This document shows positions 28,579 to 34,457 of a stretch of DNA of 64,000 nt, one piece after another. Made by a program: the position numbers and the translations under genes. Every line of letters begins with the position of its first letter. Positions within the stretch are counted from its first letter, which is position 1. The notes under the pieces were generated by a model, which was given only the letters and a program-made list of their open reading frames with translations, was not told where the DNA came from and searched no databases. The stretch spans positions 1 to 64,000 of the forward strand of contig NYZD01000175.1 in assembly GCA_002685935.1 (NCBI GenBank), written 5' to 3'. This DNA comes from Planctomycetaceae bacterium (lineage in GTDB: Bacteria > Planctomycetota > Phycisphaerae > Phycisphaerales > Zrk34).

Positions 28579-31500
28579 CTACGGCCCCTCGATCCAACGC
28601 ACGGAATTCGTGACCGTCACCTCTTGCGACGAGTAATCGCCCGGGTCGCTGCCGTTGAACACGTCGTCGACTTGCAGCGCGTTCAGCGCCCGATCATAGA
28701 CCGCCACACGTGTCAGCGTGCCCAGCCAGTCGCGACTGGTGCCGTCCTCATTGAACAACATGAACTTGTAATCCGAATCCCACCCGTCGAACGTGCCCGT
28801 GCGCGGCCCCGTGACCTCCAGCACACCGTCGCGATACATCTTCACGTTTTCACCGTCATACGTCATGACGATGTGCTGTTCGCCGGTGGTCAGCACATAA
28901 CTCGACTCGATGTTCGGCATCCCGTTGCTCGTGCTGGACGTCGTCCGCAAACGCGTGAGATACTTCTGCCCCTCCTGTCCCACCGTGAAGTTCCGCACAT
29001 AAGCCCCGTCGGAATACGACACGATCCGGGCCGGCCCGCCCTGCGTGAGATTGTCCGGCTGGCAGATGATTTCCACCGTCAACTCATCCGTCGCAGTGAG
29101 CGCGTCGTATAGTTTCGTGGCCGCGCCCGATGAGATCGCGCGATTCTCACTAGCCGCGTGAAGTCCCCCGCCGCTGACCCACGTCACGCCGGTCGTGGTC
29201 TCCAGATCAAGATTTACCGCCGTGCCGAAACCTGATGTGTCGACAATCTCCGTGCCCGGCCCGCTGCTCGGCCCGATCGCCTGGCCCGCGTTCAGATTCG
29301 ACACCTGATTTGCGTCCAGCCCGTATCGATAGATTCGCACGTCATCGATCGTGCCATCGAAGTAATACGTCAGCGTCTCATGCGACAGGTTGTCGCTCAG
29401 CCATGTCCCCGCCCCCAGCGCCAGCGGCTCATAGTTGCCGATGCCGCCGCTGCTGGTGCCCATGCCGCCGGCGTAACTGTTGCTGTCGACCAGCAACCCG
29501 TTGAGATACAGCTTCATCCCGCCCGGCCCGAACGTCGCCACCACGTGATACCACGTGTCGGTCGAGAGCCCGCCACTGCTCAACGTGTAGCTTGAACTGG
29601 TGCTCTGCAGCCGCCAATTCAGCGTCGAGCCGTAGGTATACACATGGAAATGTCCGCCCGTGTCGTAACTCGTCGAATCCTTCGAGAAGATCGCCTTATG
29701 CCCAGACAGCGAATCGCTGTTAAACCACAGCGACACCGTACCCGCGTCCAGCAGCATCGAATCGCTGTGCGGAATCAGCACGAAATCACTGCCGTCAAAA
29801 TCGACCGCGGTGCCATCCTGCCCGCTCACGCCGGTCGTCGCGCCGGCAATGGATCCATCGTGGCTGGCAACTTCGTCACCCGCCGGCGCCGGTCCCACTG
29901 CGGGCAATGCCTCATCAATGTGTAACTCCCCCGTGCCCGTCATCACCAAATCATCCAACGCAACGATCGAGCCGTACACCTTACAGTTGTTCCCAATCTC
30001 CACATCGCCGTTGGAATGAATGCGCCCGCTGATGACCGACGTCTGCTCAACAGAAATCTCCTCGGCGCTATTGAGCATGAAAAGGCTCAGACGATCGGTT
30101 CCCGTGGTATCACTGTTCACCGCGACGCTATTCTCGAAGCTCATACCCTCATCAGAATAGACCGACAGGCTCGACCCAATCGGCACGACGATCTCCGCGC
30201 CGGTGCGCACCTCGAATTCGCCTTGACAGTGGATCCTGACATCGCCATCTATGGTGACCACCGTATGATTGCCGCTGATCGTCAGATCCCCAAAGGCGCG
30301 GTCCGTGTTGATCGTCGTGTCACTGTTCAGCGACGTGTCGCCCTCGCTGACCGGCATCCCGGCTGGCGCGCTGGCGCTGGGCATGGACGCGTTCAACGGC
30401 AGCGCCGACTGCGGTCCCGTGATCGCCCCCGCCGGTGCGGAGATGACGCTACCAGGGTCGCCCTGTTCGCCAACGTGAGCACTGCCGAAGATCTTACCCG
30501 AGGTGCTGATCACCAGATCGCCCGCACTCGTCGAGTTCGTCGAAATGAACGCATTGCTGTTGACGTTGCCCCCCCCGTAGGCGCCCTGCGTCGAATCGTA
30601 GCTGTCGATGAACGCGCTGTTGCCGATCGTGATGCTGTCCCCGGCCGCCCCGCCCCCGCCGGTCCCATCGTCATCCAGCTTCCAATGGTGCAGCAGCTGC
30701 GGCTCGTTGATCACCTCGTTGAACTCATACAGCAACACCAACTGCGGCTGATCACTGCCCGGCTCCCGCGGCGTCACCGACGTCCACGTGCGCCCAATCC
30801 GAATCTCGTCAAAACCATAACCCACGCCGTGCGAGCCGTTCATGCCACCGGAGATCGCGACGCGATCAAACGCAAAATCATCCACCGTCTCCGATGCATG
30901 GGCAGACCACGTGCTCGGCTCGTTCACCAGGTCCGTCGGGTTGACCCACATGGACACCTGATCGTCACCCGACTGAAAATCGATGCGTACCACGATGAAC
31001 GCGTCGCTCGTGACGTTCACACTCGACAGATCGCGATTGCCGCTGTCGTCATCCACGCCCCACTGCCCGGCCTCCCACGGCTGACCGATCCCCAGCAACT
31101 CCTGGAACCCGCCCGTGCCGCTCCAATCGTCGTCGAGCATGAGCATCGCCCACGTGTGAAACGTATCCGACGCGTCCGACCCCGGCTCGACGACGAAGCT
31201 CAGCCAGATCGTCGTGTCGTCCTTGCCGAATTTGTCGTTGACCAGCAGGTCCGTGTGCTCAGAAGTGTCGATCAGTCGCGCCGAAACCTGTCCCGCGCCC
31301 CCGGTGGTCAGCTTGTTGCTGTCCGTATCCAGATCCAGATACGTCAGACTCGTTAACGCCACCGCATTCGCCTGCCCGTACCACGCGCCCGACCAGCCGG
31401 TCCCCCCGCTCGCCCCCGCGCCGGCGATATCGCTGGTGGCGCTGTAGCCGAAGTTCTCGTAGGCGATCTGCGTCTGAGCGTTGCCGCCCGATGCCCACTC

Positions 31501-32544
31501 AATGCACCGCTCGATCAGCGTCAGTCCGTTTGAGTTCAACGCATTCCAGTCAAAGCTGCTGCCGCCGATGGGCATGCACACCCGCCGCGCCGGTGCCGGA
31601 CTTCCGTCGGCCTGGGTCGCGCCCTTTTCAAGTGTCGCCATCGAGGCATTGAGCGGGTCGTTCGATCCATAGCTGCAAAGATTCGAAGCCCCGCTGGTCA
31701 GCGACGATGTGTAGCCCACGGGTTGGCTGGAACTGAAGATCTGAACGTAGCCAAGACTGAACTGCGACGTCGTGTAGTGCGTGTTGTCCTTGACATAGAT
31801 CGTATCGTACGACGTCCCCAACCCGTCGGTCGACGCCAGACCCAACGCATCCCACAGACCCGTGTCCTCGTTCACCACGCCGATGGGCGAGTCCTCCAGA
31901 TCTTCGTCAGCATCGTTGGCGTTCGTGTTCTCTGCGACGTACACCACATCGTTGTCAGCCAGCGCCTGATCGACATCTGCCGAAGAGGCATCGTCATCGA
32001 TCACCGTCACTGTCCAGCCCCACTGCTCGAACTGCGCCTTGCGGGCCGCGTCCTCGGAACTCAGCGGATCCGCCGGCGAGGTGACCAGCAACAGCTTGCG
32101 TGACGACGATTCCGGCTGCACGACCGCGCGCACCGTGTGCGTAGCGCCCTCGAACGTGCCGACCACCGTGATGTACAGTTGGTCTGACGCATCGTCGGCC
32201 AGGTCTCCATCGCCGCCGTCTTCATCGCCGCCCACCCCCGTCAGTGTGAACGTCCCGCCGTTCAATGCCTGATCGCTCAGCCACACGCCGTTGGTCTTGA
32301 CTGTCCGCCAGTCATCATTGTTCTGAATGTACGCCACCGCCATTTCCATCGCCGACTCGGCAATCATCCGCGCATGCGTGTGATGCTGCGCATTCGCCTG
32401 CACGCCTGTCGCCGTGTTCTGTGTCACGATCAGCGATGCCGACAACACCACCGCAATCCCCACCGCGATCAACACCAGCAACATCGCGATGCCGCGCTCA
32501 CGCTGACTCGACGCACACCCCGTTTGAAGTCGGACCTTGCTCAT
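28579..32544 (-). CDS. Giant PilX/GspK-like minor pilin fused to LamG and polymer-forming-like domains
   Basis: A 1321-residue protein. A prepilin-like N-terminus (RERG before a 23-residue hydrophobic helix, about 18-41) lacks the +5 glutamate, as in GspK and many PilX proteins. The pilin stalk to about 145 is followed by a ThuA/GATase-like region (149-350), a concanavalin-like region (about 360-590), a DUF7305/bactofilin-like beta region (about 635-880), a LamG domain (about 895-1100) and a second LamG-like domain (about 1130-1305). The strand HWKLDDD at 620-626 looks like the first strand of the LamG domain resumed near 891. Likely an exported, pilus-tip adhesin. GAGGAG precedes the ATG. 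Domain limits are by eye. Confidence 0.78.
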   Translation of the reverse strand: MSKVRLQTGCASSQRERGIAMLLVLIAVGIAVVLSASLIVTQNTATGVQANAQHHTHARMIAESAMEMAVAYIQNNDDWRTVKTNGVWLSDQALNGGTFTLTGVGGDEDGGDGDLADDASDQLYITVVGTFEGATHTVRAVVQPESSSRKLLLVTSPADPLSSEDAARKAQFEQWGWTVTVIDDDASSADVDQALADNDVVYVAENTNANDADEDLEDSPIGVVNEDTGLWDALGLASTDGLGTSYDTIYVKDNTHYTTSQFSLGYVQIFSSSQPVGYTSSLTSGASNLCSYGSNDPLNASMATLEKGATQADGSPAPARRVCMPIGGSSFDWNALNSNGLTLIERCIEWASGGNAQTQIAYENFGYSATSDIAGAGASGGTGWSGAWYGQANAVALTSLTYLDLDTDSNKLTTGGAGQVSARLIDTSEHTDLLVNDKFGKDDTTIWLSFVVEPGSDASDTFHTWAMLMLDDDWSGTGGFQELLGIGQPWEAGQWGVDDDSGNRDLSSVNVTSDAFIVVRIDFQSGDDQVSMWVNPTDLVNEPSTWSAHASETVDDFAFDRVAISGGMNGSHGVGYGFDEIRIGRTWTSVTPREPGSDQPQLVLLYEFNEVINEPQLLHHWKLDDDGTGGGGAAGDSITIGNSAFIDSYDSTQGAYGGGNVNSNAFISTNSTSAGDLVISTSGKIFGSAHVGEQGDPGSVISAPAGAITGPQSALPLNASMPSASAPAGMPVSEGDTSLNSDTTINTDRAFGDLTISGNHTVVTIDGDVRIHCQGEFEVRTGAEIVVPIGSSLSVYSDEGMSFENSVAVNSDTTGTDRLSLFMLNSAEEISVEQTSVISGRIHSNGDVEIGNNCKVYGSIVALDDLVMTGTGELHIDEALPAVGPAPAGDEVASHDGSIAGATTGVSGQDGTAVDFDGSDFVLIPHSDSMLLDAGTVSLWFNSDSLSGHKAIFSKDSTSYDTGGHFHVYTYGSTLNWRLQSTSSSYTLSSGGLSTDTWYHVVATFGPGGMKLYLNGLLVDSNSYAGGMGTSSGGIGNYEPLALGAGTWLSDNLSHETLTYYFDGTIDDVRIYRYGLDANQVSNLNAGQAIGPSSGPGTEIVDTSGFGTAVNLDLETTTGVTWVSGGGLHAASENRAISSGAATKLYDALTATDELTVEIICQPDNLTQGGPARIVSYSDGAYVRNFTVGQEGQKYLTRLRTTSSTSNGMPNIESSYVLTTGEQHIVMTYDGENVKMYRDGVLEVTGPRTGTFDGWDSDYKFMLFNEDGTSRDWLGTLTRVAVYDRALNALQVDDVFNGSDPGDYSSQEVTVTNSVRWIEGP

Positions 32545-32566: not shown

Positions 32567-33187
32567 TCATTCACCGCGCGGCGACGCCGCACCGATGAAC
32601 TGCTCATCCGTGGCCCCGATCGTCGCTTCGAGACGATAACTCACCAACGTCGCGAGCTTCGGGTCCACGTTGTTCACCGCGAACGTCGCCGTCGGCAAAT
32701 CACGCGCCCAAACCGTCACCGGGTAATAGGTCTGCCCGATCAGCCCCGTCGTCACCGTGTCAAAGTCCAACGTCAATTCATACGAAACGTCCGCCGCGTC
32801 GATCTGTGCCTGCGACCAGCCCGCGGGCCAGCCCACCGTGTACGACCGCAACTCCTCACTCGTGCTGTCGTATTCGATCCGCCGCAGTTCCGAGACATTC
32901 GGCAGCTCGTCCGCGCGCGTATCGCCGATCCACAGCACTGCAAACGATGGCCCCGCCGCCAACACCTGACGTGAACCCCGCACCGAGGCGTTCACCCGCT
33001 CACTTAGCGTCTTGTGCAGAATCACTCCCGTGCGCACGTCACGCGATTTATCCGCGCCGTACGACACCGCCATCAGCATCCCCGCCACCGCCGCACCGAT
33101 GAACCCCGTGACCGTCAGGCTCAGCAGCAGCTCAACCAACGTCAGTCCCGCGGCGCGCCGGAAATGTCGACCGTGATACGTGCTCAT
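32567..33187 (-). CDS. PilW-like minor pilin
   Basis: A 206-residue prepilin. The class III signal is RRAAG|LTLVELLLSLTVTGF: cleavage after Gly14 and Glu at +5, followed by a hydrophobic helix to about residue 40. The remaining part is a beta-rich globular domain, as in PilW/GspJ proteins. ATG overlaps the upstream PilV-like stop as ATGA, and the PilX-LamG gene starts 22 bases downstream, so the three are one translational unit. Distinction between type IV pilus and type II pseudopilus use is not possible. Confidence 0.8.
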   Translation of the reverse strand: MSTYHGRHFRRAAGLTLVELLLSLTVTGFIGAAVAGMLMAVSYGADKSRDVRTGVILHKTLSERVNASVRGSRQVLAAGPSFAVLWIGDTRADELPNVSELRRIEYDSTSEELRSYTVGWPAGWSQAQIDAADVSYELTLDFDTVTTGLIGQTYYPVTVWARDLPTATFAVNNVDPKLATLVSYRLEATIGATDEQFIGAASPRGE

Positions 33188-33687
33188 GATGCCGGCTCCG
33201 TGATAAACCGCGTCACCACCCAGGTGCGCCCCAGATCGTCAGTCACCGTCACCGTGATCGTCAGCCCGCTCGTCGTGCCGCCCAGCCCCGCGATCGACTC
33301 CGTGCCGTACGACGCCGTCACCGATCGATTGAACCGTTGATACACCGTCGAATACGTGATCGCCTGCGCATCGGCCAGCGCGCCCGCGCTATCGGCAAAA
33401 CCGTCAAAATCATCGCAGTTGTCAAAGTTGGCTCGACCCGTCTCACCCGAGTCCGGCCCGACCGTCGTCCCGCCCTGAGGATCCGCATAAGGCAGCGCGA
33501 TGATCTCGTCGGCCAACGCCTCAGCCAACGCATGCGCCCGCAACGTGTGCAGCGCCTCGTAGGGATGCGATTGCGCCACGCTGATCGCCTCCACGACCGC
33601 CAATACCGCGACTGACAGCACCAACATCGCCGCCGTGCACTCGACTAGCGTGAACCCGCCCCGGGCGTACCGATAATGATCCTTCAT
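33184..33687 (-). CDS. PilV/GspI-like minor pilin
   Basis: A 167-residue prepilin. The leader ends RGG|FTLVECTAAMLVL, with Glu at +5 and cleavage expected after Gly11. The hydrophobic helix continues through about residue 32, and the mature helix carries HALAEALADEI typical of PilV/GspI proteins. The ATG at 33687 has GAGGAG immediately upstream; longer upstream frames are not supported. First gene of the pilV-pilW-pilX-like unit, transcribed from the promoter at 33814-33842. Confidence 0.82.
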   Translation of the reverse strand: MKDHYRYARGGFTLVECTAAMLVLSVAVLAVVEAISVAQSHPYEALHTLRAHALAEALADEIIALPYADPQGGTTVGPDSGETGRANFDNCDDFDGFADSAGALADAQAITYSTVYQRFNRSVTASYGTESIAGLGGTTSGLTITVTVTDDLGRTWVVTRFITEPAS

Positions 33688-33881: not shown

Positions 33882-34457
33882 ATGGAAGCCTATCACTTCG
33901 GAACATCCCGCAGGATCGGCACAGACCATCGCGTGCGCCGCCGGCGACCCGCGACGATGGTCCGCTGCGCCTTTTCCATGGTCGAAATCATGATCGTCGT
34001 GCTCATCCTCGCCATCGCCGCGTCCATGGTCGTGCCCATGTTCGGCGACAACGACATCGCCCGCCTCCGCGCCGCCGGCCGACTTCTCGCCGCCGATCTC
34101 GACTACGTCCAGATCGAATCCATCACCCACAGCGACGATCCCCGCGTCCTCGTCCTCGATCAGACCAATAACCGTTACCACATCGCTGCCCAGTCCGATC
34201 CCAACACGCCCATCACCCACCCCATCGACCAGTCGCCCTACCTCGTCGAGTTCGGCTCCGGCCGCGCCCAGCAAATGGCCGGCGTCACCATCAGTGCCTT
34301 TGACCTCGACGGCGACGACGAGTTGAGCTTCGGGGCCTACGGCCAACCCGACCAGTCCGATCCCGCCACCATCACCCTCGGCATCGGCGACAGCACCCTC
34401 GTGCTCACAATCGATCAGGTCACCGGCGCCACCGCCATTGGCAACGTCCAGCCGTAA
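33882..34457 (+). CDS. GspH/FimT-like prepilin
   Basis: A 191-residue prepilin divergent from the other pilin genes. After a basic leader the processing site reads RCA|FSMVEIMIVVLILAIAA, with Glu at +5 but Ala instead of Gly at -1. The helix is followed by AAGRLLAADLDYVQIESITH, the GspH/FimT signature region. The C-terminal domain is acidic and beta-rich. The start is uncertain: ATG 33882 gives a 30-residue leader, ATG 33957 a 5-residue leader. Its product probably joins the same pilus or pseudopilus as the divergent genes. Confidence 0.78.
   Translation: MEAYHFGTSRRIGTDHRVRRRRPATMVRCAFSMVEIMIVVLILAIAASMVVPMFGDNDIARLRAAGRLLAADLDYVQIESITHSDDPRVLVLDQTNNRYHIAAQSDPNTPITHPIDQSPYLVEFGSGRAQQMAGVTISAFDLDGDDELSFGAYGQPDQSDPATITLGIGDSTLVLTIDQVTGATAIGNVQP

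Follow-up and report, generated by a model that had tools for sequence, protein, structure and literature searches.

Introduction

Modular pilins, in which a pilin module and domains foreign to pili share one polypeptide, are widespread. A survey built on the IPR012902 motif counted more than 1,200 such proteins in 264 architectures; LamG pilins (PF13385) are among the common architectures, and the most extreme multi-module case has 860 residues (PMC8179133). The minor pilin PilC of Streptococcus sanguinis carries a concanavalin A (ConA)-type lectin module that binds sialylated glycans and heparin oligosaccharides, and in the HIJK sets of other bacteria a tip complex is capped by K, a subunit without Glu5 (PMC9934059). 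Here we describe a K-type (GspK/PilX-like) minor pilin of 1321 residues, called giant K below, which is encoded on a planctomycete contig (Planctomycetaceae bacterium, order Phycisphaerales; assembly GCA_002685935.1, contig NYZD01000175.1, positions 1 to 64,000; these 64,000 nucleotides, the whole stretch of DNA analysed, are referred to as the window). Taken together, the evidence makes it rather probable that giant K caps the tip of a type IV filament and shows exchangeable, probably carbohydrate-binding adhesive modules.

Like PilC and PilB of S. sanguinis, which bear a ConA-like lectin and a von Willebrand factor A (vWA) module, respectively, and have been shown at the filament tip (PMC9934059, PMC8179133), giant K is a pilin with grafted, presumably ligand-binding modules, and it combines a pilin module with the non-pilus domains Laminin_G_3 and DUF7305 in one open reading frame (ORF), as modular pilins do. 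However, known modular pilins have one or two C-terminal modules (PilC is about 53 kDa), whereas giant K has four or more, apparently inside the pilin fold; the known ones were collected by the IPR012902 motif, whereas giant K is a K subunit without a Pfam N_methyl match. Giant K resembles the GspK/PilX subunits of HIJK complexes in its N-terminus, in the absence of Glu5, and in operon order with H, I, and J, but GspK has a small alpha-domain inserted, as compared to a payload of about 1160 residues here. ComZ of Thermus thermophilus is also a GspK-like, solenoid-bearing pilin with a proposed tip location (PMC6561018); unlike giant K, it is a DNA receptor with a single solenoid and no LamG, amidotransferase-like, or exchangeable module. 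PilY1/PilC of diderm type IV pili is similarly a large modular tip adhesin, but PilY1 is a separate non-pilin with a beta-propeller that is presented by minor pilins, whereas the presumed adhesive part of giant K is fused to K itself.

The principle of modular and lectin-bearing pilins is already known. As far as we found, the size, the use of the K tip cap as carrier, the solenoid nested in LamG, and the exchange slot are new. The initial annotation of this DNA had regarded such a fusion as no standard type IV pilus component, which is correct in detail but incomplete, as LamG and ConA-lectin modular pilins are described and widespread (PMC8179133). Our literature search, whose coverage is incomplete, returned no paper on DUF7305, none that treats LamG minor pilins under such a name, and no useful paper on TafC.

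The pilin scaffold of giant K

The gene (28579-32544, minus strand) is a single intact ORF with an ATG start, in which about 1160-1170 residues of added modules, the payload, follow the K-type N-terminus. The protein begins with a prepilin layout, RERG followed by IAMLLVLIAVGIAVVLSASL, so the mature start is IAMLL, with Leu23 instead of Glu at +5. The NCBIfam model GspK matches residues 16-90 (E 2.4e-7), with 30.6 bits as against a curated full-length cut-off of 130 bits, i.e., below it; the Pfam N_methyl model gave no match to the protein. The initial annotation had described this single ORF as a PilX/GspK-type prepilin lacking the +5 Glu and enlarged by lectin-fold modules, a description borne out by sequence, predicted fold, and a conserved operon of I, J, and K with H divergent.

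At the other end of the protein, a strand with the motif W-x-E forms the C-terminus of 33 of 33 long K proteins, irrespective of their modules. The same ending occurs in several short K proteins with other middles, namely pilin plus solenoid (L056, L066_5992), pilin plus alpha/beta plus LamG (L168), and pilin plus alpha/beta plus solenoid (L164); handles of this type denote loci in our collection. In L039, the penultimate strand, homologous to ITVVGTFEGATHTVRAVV, passes directly into ILVWKEN (EYEGANHKITAML...ILVWKEN), leaving the hairpin uninterrupted. The C-terminal strand is part of the conserved scaffold. Because W-x-E is kept across differing middles and the hairpin is uninterrupted in L039, we infer that this strand completes the pilin fold and that, as in ComZ, the payload lies ahead of it as an insertion between the last two strands.

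Modules of the payload

AlphaFold modeling of a 1086-residue ortholog (L069; 19 sequences) gave a mean predicted local distance difference test (pLDDT) score of 78.6 and a predicted template modeling (pTM) score of 0.38. The model consists of a 59-residue helix (14-72), four strands (83-136), an alpha/beta domain (145-349), a strand (362-367), a solenoid (about 400-640), two jelly rolls (about 656-836 and 862-1065), and, at low confidence, a short strand at the C-terminus. Its Foldseek matches in the Protein Data Bank (PDB) are laminin LG pairs, neurexin LNS domains, and other two-jelly-roll proteins including the binding domains of clostridial neurotoxins; these matches indicate similarity of predicted fold only. 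A domain search and a structure prediction, the checks proposed with the initial annotation, therefore both returned what it anticipated, a pilin helix and LamG jelly rolls (Pfam, ortholog AlphaFold).

The alpha/beta domain of the window protein (residues 147-353) was predicted with a pLDDT of about 95 and resembles the TrpG and GuaA amidotransferase subunits (1i7q_B, TMt 0.67; 2a9v_B, 0.61). Its class-I glutamine-amidotransferase fold belongs to the superfamily that holds ThuA, and to this extent the earlier label "ThuA-like" stands, but Pfam gave no match for this module and membership in the ThuA family proper has no support. His256 and Arg320-Arg321 are invariant in the alignment, whereas the conserved Cys column that a catalytic Cys would produce is absent from the 22 aligned rows. 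Amidotransferase chemistry is therefore unlikely, and the reading of this module as an amidotransferase enzyme was rejected. An amidotransferase-like domain without a pilin part was also observed in a 463-residue protein with a signal-peptide-like start (L057:3845-5236, minus strand), and on account of this protein the domain seems to be a mobile module as well.

For the remainder of the payload, Pfam assigned Laminin_G_3 in two stretches (E 7.8e-38), in agreement with the predicted concanavalin/LamG-like regions, and DUF7305 (E 7.3e-9). The annotated "polymer-forming" region was reassigned, as Bactofilin (E 0.18) misses the cut-off and the significant match is the DUF7305 beta-solenoid. NCBIfam TafC matches LamG1 weakly. 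A PDB sequence search with the single window protein yielded no match, a profile of the full-length proteins retrieved LamG chains only (4qvs, E 2e-9), and a profile of the pilin and alpha/beta parts retrieved no credible match.

In the window protein, the 245-residue solenoid separates the first strand of LamG1 (LLHHWKLDD, residues 615-639) from the LamG1 body (885-1090). Two orthologs, L051 and L156, have no solenoid, and their LamG sequences run unbroken (HFPLDDDAADGTAVD... and HWLLDDLTGATVADD..., respectively), with the alignment gap exactly between strand 1 and the body. L071, to which L156 is most closely related in the core tree, has a solenoid segment at the same place. Comparison of these sequences therefore identifies the solenoid as an insertion into LamG1, nested there and present or absent among close relatives. 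The LamG1 subfamily with GN.EP.V.G also has members in Gammaproteobacteria, Nitrospirales, and Cyanobacteria, where they belong to surface proteins that are very large and of a repeat type (L086, L089, L090, L092, L093, L095, L097-L100).

A nested solenoid also brings to mind the tip of a competence pilus, in which the payload, and above all the solenoid, would bind DNA for uptake. ComZ is a DNA-binding GspK-like pilin with a beta-solenoid between its penultimate and last strands (PMC6561018), and giant K would share both the insertion point and the solenoid. However, the payload consists mainly of LamG and jelly-roll modules, and some orthologs (L051, L156) dispense with the solenoid, so we regard a competence tip as quite improbable.

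The exchange slot

Between residue 354 and a conserved LxxLYEF strand, the orthologs share a position but not a content. This region, which we call the slot, holds LamG3 domains in 11 rows of the alignment, a "RESL" module in five, a LamG with a His/Asp-rich insert in four, an unnamed beta module in three, a second DUF7305 solenoid in two, a unique module in L048, and a jelly roll in the window; in five rows it is empty. The contents fall into seven clusters, at least as many unrelated module types, in addition to the empty state. Among the slots tested with Pfam, Laminin_G_3 was found in four and DUF7305 in one, while the window slot (residues 355-599) had no match. Placed on the core tree, which was built without the slot, the labels require at least 11 changes as compared to a minimum of 7 for eight states; this is a quick tree with eight weak forks, and the count is approximate.

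The slots of L051 and L063 are 50-55% identical to LamG1 of the same family, whereas other slots show no such likeness, which suggests that these two modules arose by LamG1 duplication. The window slot module has no relative among the orthologs. Its relatives in the class are mostly secreted proteins of 290-330 residues with a PEP-CTERM tail, together with some larger proteins, and the homology, from AYExF to DExRIGxTxxxVxP, corresponds to the stretch between signal peptide and PEP-CTERM tail. AlphaFold gave a pLDDT below 50 for this slot, which has few aligned relatives; we take the module to be a jelly roll from the familiar look of the homologous secreted proteins, not from a model.

It is also conceivable that neither the slot modules nor the LamG modules bind anything specific and that they are spacers or ballast in neutral drift on the tip cap. 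The five empty slots and the high divergence of the sequences would agree with this. On the other hand, the LamG1 motifs KD..GGH and GN.EP are strongly conserved and the slots contain whole domains with exact borders, and neutral ballast thus appears very improbable to us, slightly more so than a competence tip.

Several further observations concern the slot. Giant K genes occur as tandem pairs in L042, L043, L065, and L161, and in three of these the copies differ in slot module within one organism. The slot LamG of L062 (14055-15149, plus strand) and L074 (6417-7313, plus strand) is broken by a low-complexity insert rich in His/Arg/Gly or Asp, which is possibly metal-binding. In L170, a relative from the class, a 388-residue frame with a TadE/TadG-like N-terminus apparently contains the jelly roll of the window slot, with one TGA within the match, hinting that this jelly roll has been joined to a second pilus-type protein.

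Distribution of the fusion

Among 61 genomes of the order, 48 have some match, and in 16, including the window's own genome, the matches are long, with open frames of 1082-1503 codons. A survey of planctomycete genomes, which had also been proposed with the initial annotation, was carried out with a profile of the pilin and alpha/beta parts (A4); of 400 genomes examined from the order, 38 contain fusions covering both parts, at 44 loci in total, and two families account for nearly all of them. Where the organism is named, the long fusion belongs to Phycisphaeraceae, Phycisphaerales, or unplaced Planctomycetota; most of these are metagenome-assembled genomes, and one is a complete planctomycete chromosome (CP087563). 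When 392 genomes were drawn from across the phylum, the full fusion appeared only within the order; outside it, the alpha/beta part occurs in other proteins, in one case (G921) joined by a fragment of the pilin part.

An assembly artifact joining two genes was rejected, since the same one-ORF architecture without internal stops is present in dozens of independent assemblies. None of the outcomes named in advance as refuting the initial annotation (no pilin helix, no LamG fold, an assembly join) was thus observed. The architectures form a series that begins with pilin plus solenoid (434-606 residues) and pilin plus alpha/beta (553), continues with addition of LamG (601-620) or of a solenoid (647), and ends with the full set at about 1060-1500; such a series is compatible with stepwise accretion. 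The nested solenoid, the slot without a Pfam name, the scaffold nature of the C-terminal strand, the payload within K, and the novelty of its size were all absent from the initial annotation.

Operon neighbours and filament machinery

K is the third gene in the order I-J-K, with H divergent (Table 1). The gap between J and K is some 20 bases, with a purine-rich stretch ahead of the K ATG, and J overlaps I; because of this close spacing, the three genes apparently form one operon. The gene after H is presumably dnaE, named from its sequence. Among the 32 long-K loci examined, 20 have H divergent and I and J directly upstream of K. The other 12 comprise three with I and H, in which J was missed by a simple motif, four second tandem copies, one locus at a contig end, two with part of the H/I/J set, and two (L047, L063) with none.

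Table 1. Features of the giant K locus in the window
Feature	Position	Strand	Evidence
Giant K-type minor pilin gene, 1321 aa	28579..32544	-	ORF; NCBIfam GspK 2.4e-7; same architecture in orthologs
Prepilin leader, residues 1-18, end RERG; +5 = Leu23	32491..32544	-	Direct sequence; Gly18 invariant in 22 aligned rows
Pilin module (residues 19-146) with its long helix and the strands as far as ITVVGTFEGATHTVRAVVQP	32107..32490	-	GspK match; ortholog model helix 14-72, strands 83-136
Class-I glutamine-amidotransferase-like (ThuA-like) alpha/beta module, residues 147-354	31483..32106	-	pLDDT about 95; PDB folds; no Cys column
Exchangeable slot, residues 355-599; occupied in the window by a jelly-roll module with homology to secreted PEP-CTERM proteins	30748..31482	-	Ortholog comparison
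Conserved strand LVLLYEFNEV, residues 600-614, bounding the slot on the right	30703..30747	-	Alignment; strand 362-367 in ortholog model
First LamG1 strand (QLLHHWKLDD), residues 615-639, split from body by solenoid	30628..30702	-	Contiguous LamG1 in solenoid-free L051, L156
DUF7305 beta-solenoid, residues 640-884, within LamG1	29893..30627	-	Pfam 7.3e-9; model pLDDT mostly 80-96
LamG1 body, residues 885-1090	29275..29892	-	Laminin_G_3 7.8e-38; related to 4qvs, E 2e-9
LamG2, residues 1091-1306	28627..29274	-	Jelly roll in model; conserved among orthologs
C-terminal strand VTNSVRWIEGP, residues 1307-1321, proposed as final strand of the pilin sheet	28582..28626	-	W-x-E conservation
J-type (PilW/GspJ-like) minor pilin, AAGLTLVELL	32567..33187	-	N_methyl E 0.0026, below cut-off; position and motif conserved
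I-type (PilV/GspI-like) minor pilin, GGFTLVECTAAM, overlapping J	33184..33687	-	TIGR02523 PilV 4.4e-6, gspI 9.5e-4 on longer ORF
H-type (GspH/FimT-like) minor pilin, divergent, CAFSMVEIM	33882..34457	+	N_methyl E 0.002, below cut-off; divergent H at 23 long-K loci

T2SSE is matched 16 times in the window's own genome (3.49 Mb in 198 contigs, 79% complete), which also encodes four secretins and has a cluster of a PilB-type ATPase, a platform protein, PilM, and a GspH-type pilin. PilY1 (PF05567) was not found in any of the 61 genomes searched from the order; the model did match in four of six positive-control genomes. A second K-type pilin of 330 residues is encoded in a PilB/PilC/PilM cluster of the window's own genome (L002:910-1902, minus strand, and L060, contig C125); a foreign middle without a Pfam name precedes its C-terminal GTWRREP strand.

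The several GspE-type ATPases and the four secretins, the lack of linkage between the K operon and type IV pilus assembly genes, and the fact that the nearest named family is GspK of the type II secretion system (T2SS) would also fit a T2SS-like pseudopilus, with a payload that remains periplasmic or sits at the mouth of the secretin and recognises or pushes cargo such as PEP-CTERM or LamG proteins. We consider this unlikely, although less so than a competence tip, as the genome has a PilM-type type IV pilus cluster, the payload modules resemble parts of adhesins and vary as ligand-binding parts do, and a 1300-residue tip would presumably fit poorly into a periplasmic pseudopilus.

Discussion

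We favor a tip cap with exchangeable adhesive modules, on a filament that is most likely a type IV pilus, with K presumably at the tip and exposed at the surface. The prepilin helix without Glu5 would dock on I and J, its operon partners, and K, I, and J, with H, would start filament assembly, so that K becomes outermost. The K pilin fold would hold about 1160 residues between its penultimate and last strands, arranged as a non-catalytic amidotransferase-like base, a slot for one module, a LamG with an inserted solenoid, and a second LamG. The payload would extend past the pilus to extracellular binding partners, most likely polysaccharide, making the pilus a tethered adhesin, and swapping the slot module would change the binding target. 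By likeness to S. sanguinis PilC, adhesion of the payload to polysaccharides or surfaces is plausible, while the ligand and role of each individual module are guesses.

Several points weigh against this proposal. The pTM of the ortholog model is 0.38, so the relative arrangement of its domains is not fixed, and the C-terminal strand has a pLDDT of only about 45-51; the model does not settle where the pilin is split. At two loci (L047, L063) K has no I and J genes beside it. The H/I/J/K operon does not lie next to assembly genes, which leaves room for a T2SS pseudopilus or a competence pilus. Such a bulky tip would also have to pass through a secretin. LamG folds can, moreover, bind proteins or act as spacers.

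More tentatively, we propose that in Phycisphaeraceae-type planctomycetes the filament tip cap may have taken over the job of a separate PilY1, with specificity evolving by swaps of whole domains, from secreted PEP-CTERM proteins or from duplicated LamGs or solenoids, into one slot of a split-fold stalk.

Catalogues based on IPR012902 probably missed a class of very large tip subunits, because K has no match to the corresponding Pfam N_methyl model. The attachment of planctomycetes to particles and algae is ecologically relevant, and their pilus biology has been little studied. The family described here is a natural experiment, in which a near-identical scaffold carries differing modules, no module, or no nested solenoid. 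With this series one can test whether the tip modules determine the binding target of a pilus, what size of cargo K and the secretin tolerate, and whether K can replace PilY1.

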